A DNA stretch of 64,000 nt. It comes from Phytoseiulus persimilis (lineage: Eukaryota; Arthropoda; Arachnida; Mesostigmata; Phytoseiidae). This document shows positions 1 to 62,897 of this stretch, one piece after another. The stretch lies in NCBI GenBank assembly GCA_037576195.1, contig JAQZDE010000023.1:1-64000 (forward strand), given 5' to 3'. Each line of letters opens with the position of its first letter. Position 1 is the stretch's first letter. Position numbers and translations under genes: made by a program. Under the pieces are notes generated by a model. It saw nothing but the letters and a program-made list of their open reading frames with translations. It had not been told where the DNA came from and did no database searches.

Positions 1-3000
1 AAAGCTCGATCTAACAGCTAAAGCCAGAGCAGGAGACCCAACTGGTGGAATAAGAACTAAGGAGAGTTATCTCTGGCTCGGAGTCCTCTAGAGAGCAACG
101 CTCGAAGGGAATCGTTCTGAAACTTCACGACCGTGTCTTCCCGCCGAAACCCGTTGACTCGTAAGATGATGGGGCCGTGATTCTCTCTCAGACATCTCTC
201 GAGTTTGGAGCTCCCTTTTGAGAGTCGTCGAACACAAGTTCCGCTACATGCCAGGTCGGCATCGGCTGGCTTACCTGTGCAGGTGAATCATGTGTGGAAG
301 CGGCTGATTTGAGCAACGCGTCCTCGACAAAAAGGATTCACAATCTGAGCTTCGACTGAAGAGACCAAAGAGAACAACTAGGCAATCCGAAGAATCACAA
401 TTCCGCTACAATCACCACAAGCCGGCGAGACGGCCTAGCCACACTCACGGCTAGTCGTCATCCCGGTGCCACAGACGAGTTGGTGGACACTTGGCGCGCT
501 CTGAAAACCCCCCTCCAACCGAAAGAAGCCCAGGAGTATTTTCAGCGAGCGGAGAGAGGCAGGTCGGAAAGGGATCCTCAGGATCAGCGATGAAGGAGGA
601 GGGCCTCCGAGCCGAGCTCCTTCCAACCCTCACCTCCGAGCGCGGACTGCACCGAACATGGGACCGACCAGCCACACGCACATACACAGGCATTCATGCC
701 CAAAAAACACAACCGTGCATAGTGCTATGTATAAGCTCCTGCTCCTCAGAGAGCGGATTCCGATAGGGAGCGAATGCCTTTTCAGAAATCAATGGTCCTG
801 ATCAACCATCGAGGACTGGCATTGACGGCACGACAGGGAATCGGCATCGACATGCACCGGTGCTCCTGCGCATCATTGATCTCCAGTCAAACTCGGTTTC
901 GATCAACGTCTAACGGTGTCATCCTTTGCCCGTTGCGAAATTTGGAGCACCAACGGCTGTGCAGCCATCGCAAGCGCTGCATTCGAGAATTCGAACGGAT
1001 GACACCCTCGAATGGCACCTGGATCACGCCGTGCAGGATCTCCGGTCAGGAAACCTCCCGGGTTACCCCTTCCACACCTCGGAGGAGAGCATAACCTCCG
1101 TATAATCTCAGAACTTTCGATGACCGTATTTCAATACGGAAAGTTGGAGGAAACAACGTTGCGACTTTTAGGATTCCGTGCGCAACTCCTCGCGACCTCA
1201 TGACTCATGAGGTCGCGAGCCCCCCTGGGAAAATCGGAAAATCTGGAGAGTTGGTAATCGGTCGGAATCTCGATCTCTGCGATCGGCGGAGTAGCGTTCG
1301 TGGTCGCACGACCGTGCTGCAGAAGCCTCCCGCGGGGATTCGCCGGGTTCAGGTTGGAGTCTATGTCTTTCCGACTCCCCACATATTACGTATCAGCAGA
1401 CGGAAGCGAATCAACGGAGCAGAAACGACTGGGCCGCTAATCGCTTAACAGAGCTCTGAACCCTTCGACCGGGTGACGAGAGGGCACATGCAGAGTGCGT
1501 CATAACCTCTGCTCAGAGAGAACACCCGCAATCCTGAACTAATTCTCGGCGGATAGCTTGCTTGTTGCGATATCCCCGTTTGATAACCGAAGACAAGCGA
1601 GGTGGGATGGGGCTCATGATTTGATTTTCGGTTGATTTCGGTCTATTGAACAATACGTCTGCGAGCTACAGCGCCGCCTCTCCGTGACGGAAGTGGGCTT
1701 CGTGAATTGATTCAGGGATGGGCGAAACCTTCGTCTAATTGACCTCCTGCAGGATTTACTCCTGTTGAATGAGCATGGAAGCTCCCTGGCCTCGCCGGCC
1801 CCGCGAAATCTGGAATCGAGACGACCCGCATCCACTGCGACTCTCGTCCAACGGACAGCGAAGCTCGAGACGACTCGGTGACCACGTGGGACGAAACGAG
1901 GAACAACCAGAATGACCTCAAACCTCGACAGCTTCCCTCCGATCGCGCGCGAATCACAACCCGCGCGTCGTCCAATAGACCAGTGAGAGAAATCAGGACA
2001 TGTTTGATCTGAATCAGCGTTTCATCGCCCAAATCGCTCGTGTCTTCTCTGAGACGAACCAGTGAGGTCCTCAGATGCTCACTTCTCTGGAATGTAATCC
2101 GTTCAAGCGCTGGACCTGTGCCACAATCAAGATCCCTCGCGGACGGAAAGTCCGGGCTCTTCGCCCCCGTCCACTGAGTGTTTCGCGGGGCTGGTCTCAC
2201 AGTCCCCGGTCTCGCGAAACCAAGAGCTTCCTAGAACAGCTGATGCGGTATGCGTCTCCTTGCGTAGCAACGCCGAGACTCTAGTTCCGGTTGTTGTGAA
2301 AGTCTTATTGATTACGGACAGCCGTGATCTCATGTCCACCTCCAAGGCCTGACAAGCTCGTACGTTCCGAGTCGTTCACCATCTGGTGTGTCTGGTCGAG
2401 TCGTGATTTTACGGGAGATTAATGCTCGCAGAGAACTCTGTAGTGAAGATTTATGGCAAGGTCGCCTGACGAGCCAAGCTATGCATGAGTATAGCGGCCG
2501 AGAGCACAGCTTGAAATCAACTTCATGGGACTCCCAAATTGTTTACGGGAGCAAAATCCGGTCCCGGAATGTTCAGCAAGGATTCCCGACATCCACTCCA
2601 ATCCACTACCAGTATCTAGCGATGCCGCCGTCGCTCACTCGTTGAGCTTCTTCTTCCATGCGGTGGTCGTTTTTATTTCCCACTGCCGCACAGCGGTTTC
2701 TCGTGCTCTCTGGAAAGGTCAGAATTGACGGAAGTCAGAAGCCTGCTAGCGGGAGCTTCTATTTCACCCGACGAAAGATGCGGCGCGGAGGGAGAAAATT
2801 TTGCGGTCTCGACGCTGCATTCGCGCTCTCCTGTTTGCCATTGGTCGCGGGAAGATTGCGAGTCGCGTGTCGTTCGTGTGTAAACACATCGGCGACGGAG
2901 TTGATTTGCTCACAATTCTACCACTCGTTCCAGTCTTTTTCCGCCTCGAAGCGGAAGACGAATCGCAGATTCAATTTGTAACGCAGACTTTGCTATCGGA

Positions 3001-17700: not shown

Positions 17701-20050
17701 GTTTTTCATTGAGATCGCTCGAGAAAGCTGCGTTTGTTTGGAACAAATCTTCACGCTCAGTGTGATCACCACTCCGCTCTTGTCTCGACCATTCGGTTGT
17801 TAGTTGGCTTGTTACAACACAGCGTCTCTCATGCAAGATAGTCTTTATCTCGATCGGGTTGTTCAAGCCTATCTTCGAGTCTCAGAGGGAGAGTCTCGTC
17901 TCCTTTTTTCCATCAAACTCTTCGAGGGGCTCGGCAGGGTTCAAGCAAATTGGATCGAGTTCGGTAAAAGCAAAGGCTTGGCGTCAGTCCCATAATCTCC
18001 CCAGACGCTTCGTGGCGCACCGTCTGGACTATATCTCCAAGTGCTCGAGCCCGTTTTTGAAAACTACGGTCAAGCCCCAGCATGGGAAAATCGCCTGATT
18101 GGAGGGTCTTCCGCACGTGAGAGAGTGAAACTGAGTCTGAATGCCTTAAATCTCCTGTGCAAGTGTTAGCTGGTCTCTTTATTCAGGACTTTCGAGCGGC
18201 TCCTAATGACAATCGGTCCAGCTGTTGTCAACAAGATGGCTTGAAACGCACACGTAACATATTTCAGCCTGTAACTCGCGATCGGGAGTGAGAGAGATCG
18301 CAGATGCTGTTCCTTGTCGGTGCATGTATCCGTAGGTCGATTGATCGGCTGGTTCATCTGTAGGGATTCTCGAGTTCTCTCATCCATCCAGAAAGTCTGA
18401 CGAGGAGAGCTATATGATCAGTGGCGTCACGAGAGTCCGCTTGTGGATGCTGACCCGAGCCAGCGCCACTGACAGCAGTCGAGCAACAGTGTCTCGCTCG
18501 GCAGAGAAGTGCTGTGTGCAAAGATTGTTAAGTTGTCGTAAATCGCGGTGAAAGAGCGCTCTCGGACTGACTCGCTTCGGGTGAGGTCTCTTGACACGCC
18601 GCTCAACAAATGCAATCAAAAAAGAGCCGGCAAGCCACCGATTTAGGTGCATGAGCAGCCGCGGCGGCGAGTATCAACTCCGTGTGGCTCTCTCGCAGGG
18701 CTAATCGTAGCGGGATTTAGTGAGAAACCCGCAGCCCCTTACAATGGGTGTTTATGAACTTGGTCATTCGACGCCGAACACCGCTGAGCTGAGATCAGCC
18801 ATGGACGACAAAATTCCACTCGGAACCGCTTCGGAAGAGATTGCTCTGGAGGAGGGTGAGTGGATCAAGCGGCAGATTTGTGAACCGGTGATGAGGAATC
18901 CTTGCCAGATGAAGAGCATGGCGATCTCGCCAGAAGCTGGGCTGGCTCTCTCGGCAGAGAGGTGCCGATGTCAACAGAAGACTCGAGGGGAGTTCCATAT
19001 CCGGTTGTCTCTCGTTCATTCATACGGGAATTTCCGACGGAGTCCCGACGCCTCCCCCACCCCTTCGCCGACGCTCATGCAGTTCTTGATCACAAAGCTC
19101 AATTCGTATGTTCGTCCATCCTCCGAGATGAGAAACCGCCGTATTAGAGCCGGGCCGAACCCGACGAATATGCGCTCTGATACTGTTCTCATGGCGAGAT
19201 GCTTCGTCGGACTATTCGGAGATATCACGAGATGACAAGTATCCCGAAGACGCGCGGAGGGATGGAACTTCCGTGTCGAATGAATCGAATGTGGATCGAA
19301 ATCCCCCGTGAGGTCCCACGCAGGACACCCACGTGCGAATATCATGGATGAGGTTACGTCGGGAGTCCATGTGCTGTATTCGTGACGGTCGAGTGCCAGC
19401 CTTGATTGAATTGAATCTCGAGGTACGAAGTCACGCGTCATCACGTTACCCGCATCGCAACCTCCAGATTATGAGAGCATTTATCTGTTAGCGCGGGGAA
19501 ACGCCCTTGCGGATCTCCCCGTCTCCCTACCGAGAACCCTCTGGATATCCACTGTGGTACATTTTCACACATGTGTTCGTGGTGCTATATTGAGATCGAT
19601 GCCCCACTAACATTGTCGGACGGATCAGCTGATACCGATGATCCGTCAAGCTGTCCAGAAAAATGGCCGTTCCCGAAAGAAGAATATCCCTCTGCGGAAG
19701 CGCATTTTGTGCGGCTTTCCAGAATGCTGGTGGGTTGCTAATTTGAAGTCACAATATCCCGCTCAGAGTGGACGCACGATTATTCACGGCGGTCGAGGGG
19801 TCGCACGTCTGTAGGAGAGCGGCACCTTGGAGAGGTGTCTTGACTTTCCAGAGAATCCGAGTGGATGAGCTGGTCAGTACATGAAAAACGAAAGAATCAG
19901 CCAACGTGGTTAGCACGAAAGACAGTCGGTAACCGTTGATTCATGACTCATAAGCAACGAGATCCGAGAGCCAGGGACCGCTCCAGATGTCGTCGAATTT
20001 AGTGCAACGGTTTTATCCGAAATCAAGGACCATCGTAATCGTTCCTTCCT
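8708..20050. other. 11 kb stretch with no supported gene
   Basis: No exon here matches a protein family I recognise. The longest frames are 12600-13181 minus (193 codons) and 18720-19235 plus (171 codons). They have no domain, no splice support and overlapping competitors. The stretch includes short GGCA and CAGC-rich simple repeats (9113-9205 and 13740-13815) and an eight-G run at 12604. It may hold distal regulatory DNA or large introns of genes whose exons I cannot identify. Confidence 0.45.
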
Positions 20051-20056
20051 CTTGCA

Positions 20057-20057
20057 G
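20057..20057 (+). promoter_or_regulatory. Probable 5'UTR splice acceptor of the zinc transporter
   Basis: A pyrimidine tract followed by cttgcag ends here, 26 nt upstream of the ATG at 20084. This implies a non-coding first exon further upstream, so the promoter probably lies in the preceding gene-poor region. Confidence 0.45.
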
Positions 20058-20083
20058 TCCCGGTTGAAGGAGAGAAAACCGAC

Positions 20084-21286
20084 ATGGTTCAGGCACAGCT
20101 CAACGGGGCAAGGGCTCCTCTCAAGGGTAAGACAAAGCTGCAGAACTACAAAACGATCGAAACTGAAAAATGCATCCACGGCAGAACGGATTGCGAATGC
20201 AATCAAAGGGACACGGTGGCGTCGTATCAGGAATTGAGTATTTCTGGCTCGGAGCACTGCCATTTCGGATTGGAGCACTCGGGCACCAACGACGCGGCGA
20301 AACGGAAACTCATCATCGCCAGCGTACTTTGCCTCGCATTCATGATCATGGAGTGCGTCGGAGGTTACCTTGCCAATTCATTAGCAATCGCCACAGATGC
20401 CGCTCATCTTCTTACCGACTTCGCGTCGTTCATGATAAGTTTACTCGCAATCTGGATCTCGCAGCGACCCGCAAGCAAACGAATGAGTTACGGCTGGCAT
20501 CGAGCTGAAGTTATCGGCGCTCTCACTTCTGTGCTCATGATTTGGGTTGTCACTGGAATCCTCGTGTTCATAGCGGTCGAGCGCATATTGTACAAAGACT
20601 TCGAGATCGAAGCTCAATTCATGTTGATCACTGCCGGTGTTGGAGTCGCTGTCAATATGGTTATGGGATTCGCGCTCCACCACGGAGGACTACCGCACGG
20701 ACATTCCCACGGCGGCAGCCTGGGATCCAGTGAGCCGCATGACGAGGAGGTTGGCCACGGCCATGCCCACGGCGCACATCACGGTCACAATGCAAACGAC
20801 AATATCAACGTACGCGCTGCACTTATTCATGTTATCGGAGACTTCCTGCAGTCTTTGGGAGTCTTCATTGCAGCTCTCGTCGTGTACTTCTTTCCGCATC
20901 TCAAAATCGTTGATCCGATCTGCACCTTCGTCTTCTCAATCGTCGTCCTCTTCACGACGATCACCATCATGCGAGAAACGATCATGGTTCTGATGGAAGG
21001 CAAGCCGAAAGGAATAGACTTCCACGAGGTACGCGAACTCCTCACTGCGGTCCCCGGAGTTAAACACGTACACAACCTTCGAATATGGGCACTGACCATG
21101 GAGAAGACGGTTTTGAGCACCCACGTCGGCATCGAATTGGGCAACACGGACTATCACAGGATTCAAAAAGAGTGCGTTCGGATGCTGCGCGAGAAATACG
21201 CCTTCCATGAGGTCACAGTCCAAGTAGAGGAATGGAGCCCGAACATGAATGACTGTTCGAAGTGTAACGATATCCCGAACAATTAG
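20084..21286 (+). CDS. Zinc transporter, ZnT2/3/8-type cation diffusion facilitator
   Basis: A 400-residue intronless CDS encodes a CDF/SLC30 transporter, which exchanges cytosolic Zn2+ for protons into vesicles or out of the cell. Transmembrane segments start near residue 75. The tetrahedral Zn2+ site is complete: HLLTD in TM2 (H108, D112) and HVIGD in TM5 (H249, D253). A histidine-rich cytosolic loop (about residues 199-236) sits between TM4 and TM5. The N-terminal HCH motif (58-60) and the GWHRAE segment place it in the ZnT2/3/4/8 branch. The C-terminal metallochaperone-like domain contains VHNLRIWALT and ends in a CSKC motif, like the CxxC tail of mammalian ZnT2. A pyrimidine-rich acceptor (cttcctcttgcag, ending 20057) lies 27 nt before the ATG, suggesting a 5'UTR intron. 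The gene is convergent with ATE1. The exact paralogue (SLC30A2, A3 or A8) cannot be assigned. Confidence 0.93.
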   Translation: MVQAQLNGARAPLKGKTKLQNYKTIETEKCIHGRTDCECNQRDTVASYQELSISGSEHCHFGLEHSGTNDAAKRKLIIASVLCLAFMIMECVGGYLANSLAIATDAAHLLTDFASFMISLLAIWISQRPASKRMSYGWHRAEVIGALTSVLMIWVVTGILVFIAVERILYKDFEIEAQFMLITAGVGVAVNMVMGFALHHGGLPHGHSHGGSLGSSEPHDEEVGHGHAHGAHHGHNANDNINVRAALIHVIGDFLQSLGVFIAALVVYFFPHLKIVDPICTFVFSIVVLFTTITIMRETIMVLMEGKPKGIDFHEVRELLTAVPGVKHVHNLRIWALTMEKTVLSTHVGIELGNTDYHRIQKECVRMLREKYAFHEVTVQVEEWSPNMNDCSKCNDIPNN

Positions 21287-33289: not shown

Positions 33290-34984
33290 TGGAAATGATT
33301 GCTCGACGAGAGCGGGTCTCGGGACAGGAGCGGACATGCTGGTCTCCACCTGCAGCTTGCCATGAACCTCTTTCGGGATTTCGGTGACCGCTTCGTCGTA
33401 AGAAGAAACTTAGAGAACGCCGGAAGATGGGGAACTACTTGGAAAATGAGTTGTTTTCATTTGCATAGCGTTGAGAAGCCTTGGAACTTGAATTGAAATT
33501 TCTGGATCAAGTAAGCGCGGCTGGTTCGTCGGAAGTGCATTCTGTCGGGGTACTACATCACACGGAGCACTTGAATGGTAATCGTTCATTCGGAAAATAT
33601 GATTCTGAATCGGAGCTGTACTTCGCCCTGAAGGAAGCTCGGGGCAGTCGGATCCCGATTGCTTGGAAATTTCAGGAGTTGGGAATCCCAGGTTCAATGC
33701 TTGAGAAGAACCGTACCCCCACGAATGATACCCCAGCTGTCTCATGACCGATATTCAAGCAAAATGCCAATTTAACGCCGACTGTTGCACCCGCCGGGAA
33801 ACTCAGAAGTCACGAAGGTTGACGGAAAAATTGCCTCTGAAGATAATATGGTTTTCAGTGGCGCCAACTGAACAGTGAATGAATTTCTGAAACATTTAGT
33901 TCCCATTTGTTCTTTCTCCATCACCATCATTACTGCTACGATGACTTCGCTCTCGCCAACAACAAACAGGCGAGCGGATCGCTTTCAGTTCCTGTACAAT
34001 GATCCCTGGAGCGGTGATTCCGTCGCTTCAGCGGCCAAAACGGAATGCACACCGAATTGCCTGAGCGCGGGATTGCCCATATAGCATTGGTTCCAGTATT
34101 TTAAATTCGTCGTTCTTCAGGAACGATATGTAGAGACGTCGTCTCCTCCCAGGATACCATCGTTCCACCGAACACTTTTCCCGCATTCGTGGTGTACCAC
34201 GGAGAGAGCGAGCCTACTGTGATGAGAAAATCCGATCGATGAGACTGTTCTTGAGAGAATGATCCACAATTTCGAATAAAGACCTTTGAGTTTTCCCACA
34301 GAATGCGTTTGTTGCTCAGAACAGCGTCCACAGATCTATTCTTACCGGAGTGAACCAGGTGAAACGCACGTCAAAAATCTCAGATTTGGCGTGGCATCGG
34401 AGAAGCGGTCACGCGCAAACAGCCTCCCTTCTAGTCAGTGATCTGCTACAATATTTTGGCGGCATTATAATAAGTGTTGGAAGCTGCCTTCACAGCTGGC
34501 TGGTCCTATTCATCCCAGTCACCAGATCTGAATATTATTGGGTTGAATCCGAAGGCTCCAGAATTGCGAATGACAATGTTAACTGATTAAGCAGAAAACT
34601 GACAGAGCTCCCCATTTGCCAGACGGTTTCTCCGGGGTGTGCGCAGATGCATCGTGTGGAACTTCTCTCCCTTCTCAGCTCCAAAGAGACCCATCCTCCA
34701 GACCCGTCCAGTTGCTCTAGGGTTTTATGATTCAACTCTCCTGGCAAAGCTCCTCCCTCCGGATCGGCGAGATTTTACACCAAGACCGGGCTTACTGGCA
34801 GTCGGGACGAAAAATCATTTGTTACAGAAGAAGGCTCGAAAATCTGAGTTGGGAGCCGGAGAGCTCTTGCGGAGAGCATCCACACCGGAAGGGCCGGAGT
34901 ACCCATCTGCATCATCGCGATGTGATCACGGTTTATTTGCTTGAGGAGCAATCACTCTTGGAGCGCGAGAACGACTCAATAATC

Positions 34985-37736: not shown

Positions 37737-39941
37737 ATGAAGCATTTTTTGAAACACCACTTCCACTTCACATTTGGGCCGCTACTGTTGATGATCACCG
37801 CCCCGATCGGGATAGTTATGATCCGGCACTACCTCGTCCACTGCCAGAACGATGGGTACCTTACCTACGACGATCTGTATAACCCATCGGTGAGGTCCTA
37901 CTGCGCAGTGAACATTCGAGCATGGGTAGCCGGCTTGGAAGCCAGCAAAGGAGCGTATCTGATCCTCATCCTTGTATTCAATTCAGGCAATGATAGACTT
38001 CGTTCTCGCCTCATTCAGCACTCTGAAATGGAGCTGGTCCTCCATGCTCCACGTAGTTCTATTCTTTTCCTATGCGGGTGCTTCGATTGTCCTCCTCGGA
38101 GGCGAAGAATACCATGGACCCAGAACCGGACAGGGTTTCATTCCGACCTACTACGCGAACGGTTTCAGGTCAGGAATCGCAAGTGCTCAACCAGCCACCA
38201 TTACCCAAATGCTCTCGTTGTTCGAACGTTTCTACATCGAAAATTGTTCCGTTTAAGGTACTATGCGCTAACAACGAGTTTAACGCTGCTCCTCTTGGTC
38301 TCGGGCCGAGTGTCGGCGTGGAACATCGTGGTCCACTTGGACTACTATCAGACCGCCCTGCTAGTCACCGGGTTCCTGGTTTGTACTCTCCTCTGGATGA
38401 AAGGACATCTGTTGCCAGGTGAAGCGGATCACGGAGCTACCGGCAACGTTATCTTCGATTTCTATTGGGGTATCGAACTATATCCTCGGATCGGAACCAA
38501 GTAAGGAGCTAGTTTCGAAATCTAATTCGAAATCTAATGCTTCGGGCTCAACGCGTTCGCGTTCCTCTGCGGAGCGTTCGAGCGATCAATTCTTCGGTCA
38601 TTTTGAGCTCGTCAATGTTCTTGGCTGTTTCGTGGCTTTCGCTGATGATGAAGCTGGAAAAAAGATTTACCAGTTTGATTCTGTACCACCGAGCGTGTCG
38701 ACTGTGTCGGGCTGAGTCGGGCGTGCATTCAAATGAGACGACTCAGAATCGAATCTAATCAATGAGTTCGTCGTTTTCGCAAACTCGACTTCATCAAGCA
38801 GAACGTAGAACCAACATAATTTCTGCAGCATGAGCAGTGTAACTTCTGAACTTGATCGCGTCCGTCAAAGATCAATGGTTCTTCAAGAAGCGAGTCGAAA
38901 CCTGGTTGCGAGACAATGACCTTAAGCTCTCGGTCTCTGGTCTCTGTCTAGTCGGGAACATGGGCTTGATGATATGATGACGCAATAAAGAAATCTTGAT
39001 ATTTTGTCCACAGAATCGATATCAAACAAACGACAATCTGCCGTTTCGGAATGATGCTCTGGCAGATTATGGTCCTGGTTCTCGCATTCGCCCACTTCGA
39101 GAAGTACGGCTTCAGCTACGCCATGATAGCCACCTCCTTCCTTCAGAGCGTTTACATCAGCAAATTCTTCTGGTGGGAAGATGGATACATGCAAACTATC
39201 GACATAATCGTCGACAAAGCAGGTTATTCAGAACCTCTAGATTTATCTTCCGACACGCACTAAGTCTTCCTTCATTCTTCACGAAAATATTATCAGCTCG
39301 TTTGATGACATGAGTTTCAAATGCAGGCTATTACCTCTGTTGGGGCTGCATCTGTTTCGTGCCATTCGTCCACCCGCTCCCATCCCTGGCGCTCGTGGGG
39401 AGATCGCCAGACATGTCGTACGCGGCCTTCATATTGGTGGTTGGTTTTGGTGTGCTCTGGATACTCTTGAACTACTGGAGCGACTACCAGAGACAGCTCG
39501 CCCGGAAAACGGATGGTGAGTCCTTCTGCTTCGCGGGGAAATTTACCCCAAATACTTACAAAGCGATGCGGGCTCAAACTATGTCATGCGTTATTCCCAC
39601 CTCGATTCACAGGCAGATGCACGATATGGTTCCGTCCCGCGAAAGTCATCCGCGCCAAGTACATCGACTATGAAGGTCGAGAGCGTCAGTCATTACTGTT
39701 GGCTTCTGGTTTCTGGTCCCTGAGCCGGCACTGTAACTACGTGTTTGAAATACTAGCTGCGCTTTTCTGGACACTGCCGGCAGGATCCGCGTTAGTGCCG
39801 TATGCATACCTGTTTGTCGTTATTGTGATCGTGGCCCACCGATTACGGAGAGATGACAAGAAATGCAGGGAAAAATATGGCAAACACTGGGAAGAGTACT
39901 GTCGATTAGTGAAGTATCGGATGATACCGTTCGTTTGGTAG
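37737..39941 (+). CDS. DHCR7: 7-dehydrocholesterol reductase-like protein, copy A
   Basis: DHCR7 reduces the C7-C8 double bond of 7-dehydrocholesterol with NADPH in the ER membrane. Exons: 37737-37889, 37987-38168, 38258-38500, 39014-39222, 39327-39515 and 39613-39941, totalling 1305 nt (434 residues). All phases agree, and the exon lengths equal those of copy B exactly. It is multi-pass and hydrophobic throughout. Family landmarks are GNVIFDFYWGIEL (from G174), PRIG, FFWWEDGYMQTIDI, SGFW (357-360), the RHxNY core (364-368) and the terminal YGKHWEEYCRLVKYRMIP block. FFW...TIDI and SGFW fit DHCR7 better than LBR or TM7SF2, which have SGWW. Two usual acidic signatures differ: WGD is WGC (268-270) and YxGD is YVFE (368-371). 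The ATG at 37737 matches the start in copy B. The donors of exons 2 (gtcagg) and 4 (gttatt) are weak but conserved between copies. Enzymatic activity is uncertain. Confidence 0.9.
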
Positions 39942-40142: not shown

Positions 40143-40148
40143 AATAAA
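40143..40148 (+). terminator. Poly(A) signal of DHCR7-like copy A
   Basis: AATAAA lies about 200 nt after the stop. The same signal in the same local context (AATAAA followed by GACGAGCATG or GAGCGAGTTATG) is present after copy B, so it predates the duplication. Confidence 0.65.
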
Positions 40149-46793: not shown

Positions 46794-49700
46794 GATGTTC
46801 AACTTGCGGTCGACCTTTCTCTCACCCATGGAGCCCATCGTGAATCCACGTCCATTTAACACGTGTCTAGGGAATCCGTGATATGTGCTTTTCGGGGGAA
46901 AGTCATGATTGAACAACGCTCGGCTCTCTGAGATCATGTGGTCCCATCACGCGTTCAAAATCGAGCTCATTTCTGGATTCTGCGGGAAAAAACTTCGAAA
47001 ACACATCACCCGTGGTCGCCGGGCGGCCAGACGGCACTTGTGACTGCGTCGAGGCATATCTCGTTATTCAGAGGAAGAACACACGGTCTCATTCCCCACT
47101 CTGTGACTCTGTGGATGGTTATCATTTCCTCGATCAGCAGATGCGGGTTGAGTGACATCCCCGCCCGTGTCGGAGAAGTCCAGCAGCTGTCGATTTCTGT
47201 GCTCTCCGACCTCTTTTTGGGGGATGTCGCTGATTCCGACGGAGCAGCTCGTCAAGTCGCCGTGAGGTCAGTATGAATTCCCTTCTCTTCCCGAGACTGC
47301 GACGAGCCCACTAGATCCTAGAAACGATTGCTCGAAGGGCATGAGTCTCCGGACAGGAGCCGAGCTGATCTTTCGCGCACGGATCGTGCCACAAAATCTG
47401 TCTCAGATTGTGGTCTCCTTGAATCAAATCGAAGAACGCCGGACAATGAGGAGAAGGTGTACCCTCCGTTCGCACAGTGTTCGGGAGCCCTGAACTCTCG
47501 ATGGGAGTTTCTCGACCGGTTGGGCGGCTAGTTCATTGATACTGCATTCTATTCTGGTACTGAATCATGCGGACCATTCAGATAGCATGCGTTCGCTCGG
47601 AAAATATGGCTCGAGCTTAAGCTTCAGGTTATCACGACTTCACTTTCCTTGGGAATTCTCGTTTTCACGCCACGATTACAAGTGTAGTTGAAGGCAATGA
47701 TATCCCTCAGCCGTCTCATCTCCGGGGTCCTCCCCGGCTGTCGCGCTCACAGTCTTTGATTTAGATCACATAGGTCGACTAAAAAATCGCGTTTTGAGAG
47801 AATATTTTCCTCGACTGGGCGAGCGAGCTGGGCATTGGATTTCCGAGATATCTCGTTCCCATTCCTCTGACAGGCGTGCGGATCACGCACAGTCCCAATA
47901 CTGTGACTTCGAAAACGTTGTCCCCATTCACCGCAAGATTGCAATGCTCGACGAATTTCCCTGGGACGCTTGTAGCGTATTTGTTGCACTGTTCGAAATC
48001 TTACATATTCAAGAAACCAACGTATATATGTTTTTCACCTTCACAGACAACCTCGTCCTCTTGATTATCAGTGTCCCTCGCCCGCTCAATTCATACATAT
48101 CATACCAAGAGAACGGCAAGCACAGTTTGGGCGACAAATAAGATCGAAAAAATCTTTCAGTGAACATGATCGCCACCGTTGAATACAGACATCTCAGCTT
48201 TCCCCAGAACTCGTTCGTTATTCGGCGCAGCGTTCACAGTCCTATTCTTACCGAAGTGAGCCAGGTGAAACGCACTTCGAAAATCTCAGCTTCGGCGTGG
48301 CATGGAGGGAGCGGTCACGCGCAAACAGCCTCCTTCCTAGCCAGCGATCTACCACAATATTTTGGCGGCATTACAAAAGGTGTCGGGAGCTGCCTTCACA
48401 GATGGCTAGCCCCATTGATCTCAATTTCCAGATCGAAATATGTTTGGGTTTCAACTCGGGAGCTCCAGAATTTCGAATGATGTTTTCTATTTGAGTAACA
48501 AGAACACTGACCAAACTTGCACTTGCTTGAATGTTTTTTTCCGGGTTGAGCTCCCTTTGACAGATGCGGCGTGTGGAGCTTGTCTGCTCTCACAGCTTAC
48601 GAAAGACTCATTGTTCGGCAGTCACCGCAGGGCTCGCCTATATTACTGTCTACTTATGGCGCAGCAATAGCTGCTCTGTTCGGATTTGCGGAATTCAGCA
48701 AGCGGAAGAAGCTCACAGTCGGCAGTCAGGGCAAGAGATTATTCGTCACAGGAGAAGGCTCTCGAAGTCAAGTTAGCAGCCAGACCTCGCGGTTGCCTCT
48801 TCCGGATAGTACTGAACCGGCTGGGCAAGGGGTCACCGTCTCAATGACCGCGAGAGGATCACCGGTTATTGGCCTGAGAAACCACTCTGGGAGCGCGGGA
48901 TCGCCTCAATCATCTCATGACTCTCGCTTGTCAATGATCCCGGCAACGACCCCGATCGAGATACGGACGAGCCCACTTGACGGGCTTCCGCGTTGTCGGC
49001 CAGTGTTCTCCCGTACCGGAAAATTTCCCATACCGATAATGTATTTAAACATATGTCATATATATCGAGGCACGTAGACGCCGTTGTCGCATTGCTGTGC
49101 ATTCGAACCAGTGTACCGCGAAACAGAAGAAGTTCCGCTCGCCGCTTACAGCTGACGATTGCCAGTCGAGACATCTCTTCCGAGCGGGAGAGGGTTCTGT
49201 CGGAGAAGAACGGCTATCTGCATCCTCGTGAGAGAACGCAGACCATTTTTAACTCGAATGACTGCCGGCGATAGTTCTCCCCGCTGCGGAAGGTTTCTTC
49301 GTCAAGGAAAGAGCTGTCTATCTAGAGGAATGGATCTGGGGAGTTCCGAAAGTCGGAGCAGCATTCGACAGGCGGATTTCTGCGGTTAGACTGAGCGGCC
49401 TCGGCGTGAGCGGTCCTGCTCTGCAGAGAGAAGTTCATACGAAGGTTCGACTATGGCGACCATAAAGCAGCGGCTGGCCGGTTGACGAGGTGCCGAGTCG
49501 CTCGGGGCAAGTGATGACGTAAATAGACGCGGGGGTTCCGAAGATTCTGAGGAAGTGTGCCTCGCAGATTTGGCAGGAACCGATCCCGACGAGGACGTTT
49601 TATCGTGGGCTCTAGTCAAGGCACGGGAAGTGACACATTTGTGTAACGCGACGATCGCTGTAACGGAGAGCCAAAGAAACGCGTCATGACCAAGCCAGCG

Positions 49701-50857: not shown

Positions 50858-53045
50858 ATGATACAGTTTCTGAAACACCACTTCCATTTCACGTTGGGGC
50901 CACTACTGCTGATCATCACCACTCCGATCGTGGTGGTCATGCTCCGGCACTACCTCGTCCACTGCCAATCCGATGTGTGCCTGACCTACGATGATTTGTA
51001 TAAGCCAGCGGTGAGGCCCTGCAGCTGTCAGGCGCAGTTGAAATACTATGTATAGCTATGGGGAGTTGCGAAGCCAGCAGTGGAGCGTCTCTAATCCTCA
51101 TCCCGGAATTTACTTCAGGCAATCATCGACTTCATCCTCATCTCGTTTAGCACTCTGAAATGGAGCTGGTCTGCCATGCTACACGTAGTTTTGTTTTTCT
51201 GCTACGCGGGTGCTTCGACTGTCCTCCTCGGAGGCAACGAATACCATGGACCAAGAACCGAACAGGGTTTCACTCCGACCTATTACGCGAACGGTTTCAG
51301 GTCGGAAATTCGTTCCAAAAGCTCAACCAGCCGTTATTACTCAAATGGTCTCTCTGTTCAATAGCTTCTACATCATGAACTGTTCCGCCAAAGGTATTAT
51401 GCACTGACAACGAGTTTGACGCTGCTCGTCCTGGTCTCGGGTCGAGTGTCGCCGTGGCAAATTGTGGTCAACCTGGATTACTATCAAAGCGCCATGCTAG
51501 TTTCCGGCTTCTTAGTTTGTACTCTGCTCTGGATGAAAGGACATCTGCTGCCGGGTGAAGCGGATCACGGAGCTTCCGGCAACGTTATCTTCGATTTCTA
51601 TTGGGGTATCGAACTACATCCCCGAATAGGAACCAAGTAAGAGGAAGTTTCTAGATCGAATCATACATGGGAATTCTCTGCGAGGAATCAAGCGAAAAAT
51701 GCACATACCGAGATTGGTTCAGTCCAGACAAATGTTCTCTTCGGGGAGGCTTCCGTGCGCTCAGGCTCCATTCGTTCGCGTCCCTCGCGGGGCGTTCGAG
51801 CGATCCATGCTTCAGTCATTGTCGGTTCGACAATTATCCAGCTGTTCGGTGGCTTATGCGAATTCTGAGGTCGCGAAAAAAATTAACCAGATTGATTCCG
51901 AACTCACAAACTCGACTTCCGCGTGCAGGACGTGTAGCAGCTTCCAATGCAGCGTAGGCAGCCTATTTCTAAACTTTATCGAGGTCTTCGAAGCAACGGA
52001 TCATCCTTTGCTCAAGATGCGAGCCGAAACCTGGATGCGAGCGAATAACCTTTATCTTTTTTTCGGCGGTCTCTCTTCAGTCGGAGGTATGGGGCGAACT
52101 CGATAAAGAACTTTCAATGTTTTCTCCACAGAATCGACATTAAACAAACGACGAACTGCCGTTTCGGAATGATGCTCTGGCAGGTTATGGTTCTGGTTTT
52201 CACATTCGCGCACTTCGAGAAGTACGGCTTCAGCTACGCCATGACCGCCTCCTCATTCCTTCAGAGCGTTTATATCAGCAAATTCTTCTGGTGGGAAGAT
52301 GGTTACATGCAGTCCATCGACATCATCGTCGACAGAGCAGGTTATTCAAAACTTTTCGATTGGTCTCTCAATGCATGGCAGGCCTTCCTCCGTTGTTGAC
52401 ATGAATATTATCGGTTCACGGTATGTAATATGAGTTCCGACTTCAGGTTATTATGTCTGTTGGGGCTGCATCTGTTTTGTGCCATTCTTTTATTCGCTCC
52501 CATCCCTGGCGCTCGTTGGGAGATCGCCAGACATGTCGTTCGCAACCTTCCTATCTGTGGTTGCTTTTGGTGTGCTCTGGATACTCTTGAACTACTGGAG
52601 CGACTACCAAAGACAGCTTGCCCGAAAAACGAATGGTAAGTAAAAATATGACCCGATGCTTACAGAGCAACGAATGCTCAAAATCTGTGAAACGTAATTC
52701 GAACCTCGATCCCCAGGCAAATGCATGATATGGTTCCGTCTCGCGAAAGTCATCCGCGCCAAGTACATCGACAATGAAGGTCGAGAGCGTCAGTCATTAC
52801 TGTTGGCTTCAGGCTTCTGGTCCCTGAGCCGGCACTGTAATTATGTGTTCGAAATACTAGCTGCGCTTTTCTGGACACTGCCTGCAGGATTCGCGATTGT
52901 GCCCTATGCATACGTGTTTCTCCTTACGGCCATCCTGGGCCACCGACTACGGAGAGATGACGAGAAATGCAGGAAAAAATATGGCAAACACTGGGATGAG
53001 TACTGTCGACTTGTGAAGTATCAGATGATACCATACGTTTGGTAG
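50858..53045 (+). CDS. DHCR7: 7-dehydrocholesterol reductase-like protein, copy B
   Basis: Exons: 50858-51010, 51119-51300, 51394-51636, 52132-52340, 52447-52635 and 52717-53045. This totals 1305 nt, 434 residues, with the same phases and exon lengths as copy A. A hand alignment gives 67 differences in 434 residues (about 85% identity). Differences concentrate in the N-terminal exon (13 of 51) and in the last membrane segment (FLLTAILGH versus FVVIVIVAH). The cores around the ligand and cofactor sites (GNVIFDFYWGIEL, SGFW, RHCNYVFE) are unchanged. The WGC and YVFE substitutions are shared with copy A, so they predate the duplication. There is no frameshift or premature stop, so the copy appears functional at the coding level. 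The start ATG at 50858 follows gccaaa, like the accaaa of copy A. Confidence 0.9.
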
Positions 53046-53159: not shown

Positions 53160-53165
53160 AATAAA
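53160..53165 (+). terminator. Poly(A) signal of DHCR7-like copy B
   Basis: AATAAA lies about 115 nt after the stop. It is homologous to the signal at 40143 and close to the downstream end of the duplicated block. Confidence 0.65.
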
Positions 53166-61793: not shown

Positions 61794-62897
61794 ATGGTGT
61801 TCATCCTACGTTTGAGAACTATACCAACTATACACCGAGCTATGTCTTCGGCGGCTCCACAGGACGTCCTTCTTCAACTTCAAAACGGCAGGGGTATCAT
61901 CACTATGAACAGACCGAAGGCTCTGAACGCTCTCTCCTTGCCGATGATTCGAACGATGGAACCCGTGATACGAAAATGGCACAATGAAAGTCTGGCCAAA
62001 CTTGTTTTGCTCAAAGCTTGTGAAGGTAAAGCGTTCTGCGCAGGGGGTGATGTCAAAGCCATCGCCGCTGTGAAAGGCAACAACGATGCATTCTTCAGAG
62101 AAGAGTACGTACTTGACTACCTGTTGGCGAAAATGAGGCCTCCCTTAGTTTCATTGATTGATGGTATCGTCATGGGCGGAGGATGCGGCATATCGTTCCA
62201 CAGTCCGTTTCAAGTAGTGAGCGAAAGGGCGCTTTTTGCAATGCCAGAAACGGCTATTGGTCTATTCCCTGACGTGGGCGGATGTCTATTCCTGAGCCGC
62301 CTCAAGCACAATCTCGGAGTTTTCCTTGGTCTTACCGGGAATCGCTTGCGAGGAGAAGATCTTGTGCATGCCGGACTCGTGAGTAATTTCGCTCCGTCGA
62401 CGGCATTTCCTGAGCTCGAAAGAGAGATCCTCGCCCTCGATGATTGTTCCGAAAGCTCGATCAAAAAAACTCTGGGTAAATATCAACCTACTTTGAGTCA
62501 GTTTTCGCTAGAGCCTCATTTGGGGGAGATTGACTCGTGTTTTTCATCGCACAACGTCGAAGAAATCATCGAAAGACTCGAAATGAATGGGAGTAAATTC
62601 TGCAAGACGCAGGTGGAACTTCTGAGTAAGATGTCTCCACTGTCTCTCAAAGTTACGTTGAAGGCCATTCGCAAAGCCGAATCCATGAATCTCAAGGAAG
62701 TTCTTGAAATGGATATGCGCCTGGGGAAGCGTTTCCTGGCCGATCATGATTTCTACGAAGGTGTTAACGCGTTGTTAGTGCGGAAGACGAACGATCCGAA
62801 ATGGAAACCAGCTACCCTCCGGGAATGCACTCCTGACATAGTGGACAAGTATTTCGACAAGCTCCCTCAGCCCGAAGAGCTCACGCTCGTCATATAG
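61794..62897 (+). CDS. HIBCH: 3-hydroxyisobutyryl-CoA hydrolase, mitochondrial
   Basis: HIBCH hydrolyses 3-hydroxyisobutyryl-CoA in valine catabolism in the mitochondrial matrix. The CDS is a single uninterrupted exon of 367 residues. The N-terminus (MVFILRLRTIPTIHRAMSSA) is basic and hydrophobic, as expected of a targeting peptide. The crotonase fold follows: MNRPKALNAL, oxyanion-hole segments FCAGGDV (81-87) and IVMGGGCGIS (125-134), and the hydrolase hallmark MPETAIGLFPDVGG (150-163) with the acidic residues E152 and D160. The C-terminal ECH_2 region includes SPLSLKVT and the FYEGVNALLVRK block. The length is close to other animal HIBCH proteins (about 380). An alternative start at the second Met (residue 17) would remove the targeting peptide. 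The lack of introns contrasts with the many introns of its neighbours. Confidence 0.95.
   Translation: MVFILRLRTIPTIHRAMSSAAPQDVLLQLQNGRGIITMNRPKALNALSLPMIRTMEPVIRKWHNESLAKLVLLKACEGKAFCAGGDVKAIAAVKGNNDAFFREEYVLDYLLAKMRPPLVSLIDGIVMGGGCGISFHSPFQVVSERALFAMPETAIGLFPDVGGCLFLSRLKHNLGVFLGLTGNRLRGEDLVHAGLVSNFAPSTAFPELEREILALDDCSESSIKKTLGKYQPTLSQFSLEPHLGEIDSCFSSHNVEEIIERLEMNGSKFCKTQVELLSKMSPLSLKVTLKAIRKAESMNLKEVLEMDMRLGKRFLADHDFYEGVNALLVRKTNDPKWKPATLRECTPDIVDKYFDKLPQPEELTLVI

Follow-up and report, generated by a model that had tools for sequence, protein, structure and literature searches.

DHCR7 reduces delta-5,7 sterols to delta-5 sterols, mutations in DHCR7 and in LBR cause human disease, and Neverland is the enzyme that makes 7-dehydrocholesterol for the moulting hormone. 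A model of ERG24 assigns catalysis to yeast Tyr257 and Asp374 (MaSR1 Tyr241 and Asp363) and counts yeast N332, K335 and R339 among the residues likely to bind the cofactor (PMC12489058); by our own mapping, these three would be MaSR1 316, 319 and 323. Contacts in MaSR1 were taken second-hand from PMC12489058 and PMC4951196, the latter of which reports that LBR N547D and R583Q lower NADPH binding and gives a value of 24.2 uM for NADPH binding by wild-type human LBR, measured by tryptophan fluorescence. Human DHCR7 R352W, a common SLOS allele, diminishes activity (PMC4743690), and Drosophila LBR is without C14 reductase activity in yeast, yet binds lamin B (PMC2478713). Arthropods are described as sterol auxotrophs, an active DHCR7 is described from the sterol auxotroph Phytophthora capsici (PMC11591786), and a contig of the tick Ixodes ricinus is described as DHCR7 (PMC5099782).

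A tandem pair of sterol reductase genes

The window analysed here, the first 64 kb of the 125-kb contig C23 of a mite genome of 181 Mb in 127 contigs, contains two six-exon genes with canonical GT-AG splicing on the forward strand, copy A at 37737-39941 and copy B at 50858-53045. They have equal exon lengths and matching intron phases, and each encodes 434 aa, of which 367 (85%) are identical between the copies. Both copies are free of stop codons within the frame, of frameshifts and of broken splice sites.

37737..37889, +, copy A exon 1, residues 1-51, start codon in AAAATG context (splicing)
37987..38168, +, copy A exon 2 (splicing)
38258..38500, +, copy A exon 3, GIELYPRIG motif (splicing)
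39014..39222, +, copy A exon 4, predicted catalytic Tyr (MaSR1 Y241) and TIDI Asp (MaSR1 D257), both kept (splicing, alignment)
39327..39515, +, copy A exon 5, WGC (C270 at 39347-39349) and altered TM8 arm (splicing, alignment)
39458..39505, +, copy A altered TM8 motif W307-x4-Y312-x2-D315-x2-R318-x2-A321-R322 (coordinates counted from C270)
39613..39941, +, copy A exon 6, SGFWSLSRHCNYVFE (F370 at 39744-39746, E371 at 39747-39749), HRLRRDD, KYG and stop (splicing, alignment)
40143..40148, +, AATAAA 3' of copy A (sequence)
50858..51010, +, copy B exon 1 (splicing)
51119..51300, +, copy B exon 2 (splicing)
51394..51636, +, copy B exon 3 (splicing)
52132..52340, +, copy B exon 4 (splicing)
52447..52635, +, copy B exon 5, WGC (C270 at 52467-52469) and altered TM8 arm at 52578-52625, counted from C270 (splicing, alignment)
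52717..53045, +, copy B exon 6, RHCNYVFE (F370-E371 at 52848-52853) and stop (splicing)
53160..53165, +, AATAAA 3' of copy B (sequence)

Self-comparison of window positions 30000-64000 gave a repeat offset of 13.1 kb across the genes. An upstream block (34293-34544 and 48199-48450; 81% identical, offset 13.9 kb) is duplicated along with them, so the duplication extends past the reductase genes. A genome search with protein B returned 12 matches, all on C23 within A and B, and a DNA pattern built on both WGC stretches matched only those two sites in the 64-kb window. The further homologue found in the genome is a single-frame, LBR-like gene of 479 codons on contig C2, referred to below as L003 (G000:C2:8343595-8347623, 1498-2937, minus strand). 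As modelled, copies A and B begin 10 residues ahead of the first hydrophobic segment (11-29), with an in-frame stop upstream, and the nucleoplasmic chromatin- and lamin-binding N-terminal domain of LBR is absent from these models, although an unseen exon further upstream may exist. A Pfam scan of six frames in the window gave matches for two, a zinc transporter-like frame (Cation_efflux, ZT_dimer; 20039-21286, +) and an enoyl-CoA hydratase-like frame (ECH_2; 61794-62897, +), neither of which is sterol-related.

Both copies belong to the ERG4/ERG24 sterol reductase family, with Pfam PF01222 matching copy A at 170.9 bits (5e-50, residues 60-434) and copy B at 182.5 bits (2e-53, residues 58-434) against a cut-off of 27 bits; NCBIfam offered no model. 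The 255-aa C-terminal part of copy A matched the PDB chains 4QUV (1.2e-36) and 9L5R (1.4e-24). Every human comparison in this work uses a provisional DHCR7 sequence. Among the rows compared, which include neither arthropod DHCR7 nor TM7SF2 nor vertebrate LBR, this human DHCR7 was the best local BLAST match (185 bits for A, 181 for B) and the MaSR1 type was second (151 and 145 bits). The tentative assignment to DHCR7 is made on the match to this provisional human sequence. A tree of 29 rows places A and B with human DHCR7, 9L5R and MaSR1 at a fork that is drawn open (support 81/98); long-branch effects are possible there, the stem of A and B measuring 2.43 compared to 0.61-1.03 for the other three. 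No relatives were found in the viral contigs searched, and in the phylum sample of 398 genomes no genome besides the source held a family member (1/398).

The two acid motifs across the family

The original prediction held that two acids generally conserved in sterol reductases had been replaced in both copies, by C270 in the WGD motif and by F370-E371 after RHxNY, and that this pointed to altered cofactor or substrate use or to a non-catalytic role. Splicing into intact 434-aa proteins places all three residues exactly in both copies, and the intervals it named (39327-39941 and 52447-53045) cover exons 5-6 of each. Alignment likewise bore out that RHxNY, ahead of the second site, is kept in both. 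By the numbering of the 4QUV chain, on which the published Y241, D363, N359 and R395 of MaSR1 land on Y, D, N and R, C270 corresponds to MaSR1 D271 and human D310, F370 to MaSR1 G362 and human G410, and E371 to MaSR1 D363 and human D411.

Family members were gathered by a scan of genome contigs and by Pfam searches over 8 handles and over phylum and order samples (398 genomes for the phylum; 196, 198 and 121 genomes for three orders). Frames of at least 200 aa with at least 90 bits to a profile of A, B and L003 were kept and weaker matches, mostly loci from the contig scan, were not counted, a filter with a mild bias towards rows resembling those three. After removal of 13 identical and 2 short frames, 50 bacterial rows and L003 were left, and with 9L5R added the set is counted as 51 others. 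At the WGD column (D271) these rows are split between G (22), D (15) and C (14), and at the acid of NYxGD (D363) between E (48) and D (3). The Gly ahead of that acid (G362) is present in 51/51 and is Phe in A and B. A thinned set of 24 bacterial rows below 80% identity gave the same picture (D271: G 9, C 8, D 7; D363: E 23, D 1; G362: G 24). Since all 14 rows with Cys at D271 also carry Glu at D363, the pairing of Cys with Glu at these sites recurs in the family, and the idea that WGC and NYxGE are unique was rejected. The 14 rows are L054, L059, L075-L078, L083-L086, L007, L073, L074 and L079. Several bacterial genomes hold two to four family members, some of them adjacent (G659 C13).

General conservation of the two acids therefore did not hold across the 51 rows, although Asp does stand at both sites in the enzymes of known function, namely the solved 4QUV (MaSR1) and 9L5R, the latter going by its name, and human DHCR7, and is highly conserved at the WGD site of eukaryotic ERG24 (PMC12489058). 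We know of no assay of bacterial family proteins with Glu at D363. We also considered whether A and B are members of the bacterial WGC clade; the tree puts them on the other side, so the shared Cys looks convergent. A sequencing error or a pseudogene was ruled out by two intact copies with the same residue states.

The literature on ERG24 bears on the first of these sites. Yeast Asp287 would be MaSR1 Asp271, the Asp of WGD; this is our own mapping by spacing, made because Asp287 lies 14 residues past Asp273 (MaSR1 Asp257), and the Leu of MaSR1 at the position of Val291 fits it. Asp287 lies near the sterol C3-hydroxyl in some poses, away from the cofactor, and is highly but incompletely conserved in eukaryotic ERG24, with Asn in representatives of Glomeromycota and Mucormyceta, and D287N in yeast altered amine resistance while lowering final OD by just 2.7% (PMC12489058). 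Variation among active enzymes, which the original prediction named for DHCR7 as counting against it, is thus found for the WGD acid within ERG24. A change from WGD to WGC, at the C3-hydroxyl end of the sterol, would at most tune the fit of sterol or inhibitor. At the second motif the change from Asp to Glu retains the acid, and the oddity there is the replacement of Gly by Phe. Since the WGD acid varies in ERG24 and the second change is one of Asp to Glu, the functional claim does not follow from the two acids that were named.

The TM8 arm and the retained core

In both copies, the TM8 motif G-x4-R-x2-N-x2-K-x2-F has become W-x4-Y-x2-D-x2-R-x2-A, which in copy A stands where the alignment leads one to expect G-x4-R-x2-N-x2-K-x2-F-R/K. 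The original residues are nearly invariant in the 50 bacterial rows (G308 in 50, R313 in 50, N316 in 48, K319 in 50 and F322 in 49), and the R and K are also present in human DHCR7 and 9L5R. The states W, Y, D, R and A, together with the Phe beside the acid, occur in 0/50 bacterial rows and in neither human DHCR7 nor 9L5R. Human R352, the residue affected in the SLOS allele, corresponds to MaSR1 313 and is Tyr in A and B. In the literature searched, neither the titles nor the abstracts listed dealt with a mite DHCR7 changed in this way, and no paper paired DHCR7 with G410S; PMC13277303 concerns an unrelated NTF2-fold reductase.

Columns were counted as conserved when 90% or more of the 50 bacterial rows, and also human DHCR7 and 9L5R where covered, share the residue. 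Of 42 such columns, copy A keeps 32 and copy B 31. The changes in copy A are, in MaSR1 numbering, P92G, L211I, G308W, R313Y, N316D, K319R, F322A, G332F, G353S and G362F; copy B is changed at the same ten sites, with Val at 211, and has T255S in addition. In the run of seven consecutive conserved columns that spans 308 to 332, six differ in the mite copies, with a permutation p of 0.005 at a width of 7 and of 0.19, 0.04 and 0.02 at widths of 5, 6 and 8, a shift with window width that makes the clustering moderate evidence. Pocket columns as a class are no more altered than others, as copy A keeps 11/15 of those where human, 9L5R and MaSR1 agree compared to 37/73 of the other columns (p = 0.16). 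Sharing of the changes by A and B counts as one event, since the copies are tandem duplicates with 85% identity.

Much of the predicted active site is retained. Y241, D257, R323, R356, H357, N359, Y360, R395, D399, K406 and Y407 are kept in both copies; D257, R356, H357, Y360, R395, D399, K406 and Y407 are among the conserved columns, and Y241 and N359 are kept besides. The predicted catalytic Tyr (MaSR1 Y241, yeast Y257) is Tyr in A and B and in 37 of the 51 others, Phe in the remaining 14, and the predicted catalytic acid (MaSR1 D363, yeast D374) is Glu in both copies. The cofactor-pocket residues N359, R395, D399, K406 and Y407 are all present, with LBR N547 and R583 mapping onto N359 and R395. 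Read from the alignment, the true outlier is the changed cofactor-side arm together with the Gly to Phe change, and the weight given earlier to the acids was misplaced because Cys and Glu at both sites recur within the family. The Phe of VFE was part of the real oddity, while the losses of R, N, K and F in the arm had gone unnoticed.

Comparison of the copies gave dN 0.078, dS 0.337 and an omega of 0.23 (bootstrap 0.16-0.33), with introns 64-73% and exons 82-90% identical. The duplicated gene is under purifying selection, and its active site is otherwise largely kept. Two further claims of the original prediction are upheld, namely that the change predates the duplication, as both intact copies share it, and that it does not reflect recent decay, given intact copies, shared changes and this omega. 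By exon, from 1 to 6, omega was 0.29, 0.21, 0.13, 0.12, 0.26 and 0.46, and the ratio of amino-acid-changing to silent codons was 17:29 in exons 3-4 compared to 28:18 in exons 5-6 (p = 0.036 in one comparison among several made); the relative excess of amino-acid changes in exons 5-6 fits a relaxation of the cofactor half. Exon 5 of copy A is identical to human DHCR7 at 18/63 residues, a low value that counts against the DHCR7 reading, and to the MaSR1 type at 33/63, and exon 6 is the part of A best kept in relation to human DHCR7 (45/109).

Function and comparison with known systems

In an exon-by-exon search without a positive control from a related genome, neither squalene epoxidase (PF08491) nor EBP (PF05241) was matched in the genome, in line with arthropod sterol auxotrophy. 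An exon-wise search likewise gave no KshA_C match to a Neverland-type oxygenase, and the sole Rieske match, judged by eye, looks like the mitochondrial bc1 Rieske protein; this absence is provisional because genes may escape an exon-wise search. For Neoseiulus cucumeris (PMC6902594) and Varroa (PMC6773775), too, a failure to find Neverland is reported.

The reading that we tentatively favour is that A and B are DHCR7-derived sterol reductases with a remodelled cofactor site. They would be integral-membrane reductases of the DHCR7 type, in a host that probably cannot make sterols and obtains them from food. Their ability to reduce a ring double bond in dietary sterols is most likely retained, with delta-5,7 to delta-5, the DHCR7 reaction, as a first guess for the conversion. 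Activity is likely to persist because both copies still have the predicted proton-donor Tyr, the acid, RHxNY and the R/D/K/Y nucleotide site near the C-terminus, and the Glu would be the acid that positions the Tyr. Part of the TM8 arm is a predicted NADPH contact. The arm and the Gly by the acid changed before the duplication, and the cofactor is therefore probably held differently: more weakly, in another pose, or with a shifted preference between NADPH and NADH. It is for this reason, the loss of four TM8 residues (R, N, K, F) together with the NYxG Gly, that altered cofactor use or a non-catalytic role may still hold.

A close rival, and a realistic one, is that the pair has lost NADPH-driven reduction and is kept to bind, sense or carry a sterol, perhaps a 7-dehydrosterol. 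The residues missing from both copies argue for this, since R, K and Gly are held by 50/50 bacterial rows and a loss of NADPH binding, hence of activity, is quite possible; so do the diminished activity of human R352W (PMC4743690), the seemingly stronger constraint in exons 3-4 than in exons 5-6, and the precedent of Drosophila LBR (PMC2478713). With no Neverland-type oxygenase found in the exon-wise search, moreover, an active delta-7 reductase would consume dietary 7-dehydrosterol that moulting-hormone synthesis may need. The remodelled reductase is nevertheless favoured on the residues kept: the catalytic Tyr, the acid, RHxNY, R395, D399, K406 and Y407 have outlasted a long branch while several of them are lost in L003, and the pocket columns of copy A are not preferentially changed. 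That A and B are instead an ordinary delta-7 reductase, a fast-evolving DHCR7 with every substitution compensated and normal NADPH kinetics, is unlikely. Two of the three flagged residues do recur in relatives, the yeast change at the WGD Asp is near-neutral (PMC12489058) and a tick contig is described as DHCR7 (PMC5099782), but the TM8 states and the Phe by the acid are absent from the 50 bacterial rows, human DHCR7 and 9L5R. Decay of the pair under no useful selection would agree with the long stem and the weaker constraint in exon 6, and is very improbable given two unbroken copies, an omega well below 1 and introns that have diverged more than exons.

One further idea, decidedly speculative, is that in a lineage without Neverland DHCR7 has turned from a consumer of 7-dehydrosterol into its holder, sparer or even former. 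If so, the two copies would be cofactor-disabled carriers of 7-dehydrosterol, or enzymes run towards desaturation, that serve the supply of ecdysteroids. The gene pair also bears on how mites reported without Neverland, such as Neoseiulus cucumeris (PMC6902594) and Varroa (PMC6773775), get 7-dehydrocholesterol for their moulting hormones. More broadly, DHCR7-like genes persist in sterol-auxotroph arthropods, here and in a tick (PMC11591786, PMC5099782), and a changed arm beside much of the catalytic core offers a natural experiment on the NADPH contacts that DHCR7, LBR and ERG24 cannot do without.

Set beside DHCR7, A and B are 30-34% identical and 41 residues shorter than the human sequence, with GIExxPRIG, SGFW, RHxNYV, TDGRCxIW and RDxxxCxxKYGxxW common to it and copy A, and differ from it by D310C, G347W, R352Y, N355D, K358R, F361A, G372F, G401S, G410F and D411E. 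The C14 reductases MaSR1 (4QUV), 9L5R, ERG24 and TM7SF2 are of the same Pfam family, and the catalytic Tyr and C-terminal cofactor site of MaSR1 and 9L5R are retained in A and B; WGD or FGD has become WGC, NYxGD has become NYVFE, and the R..N..K arm of TM8 is gone. The 14 bacterial Cys/Glu rows (e.g. L059, L083-L085) share WGC or GC and RHxNYxGE with the mite pair and, unlike it, retain the Gly ahead of the Glu and the R, N and K of the arm. L003, of the same Pfam family, resembles A and B in having no WGD Asp and a Glu at the catalytic acid, and differs in its basic N-terminal part. It keeps 23/42 conserved columns, having lost Y241 (H), D257 (A), D399 (I) and K406 (E) while keeping N316, K319 and G362, a residue pattern that is roughly the reverse of that in A and B.
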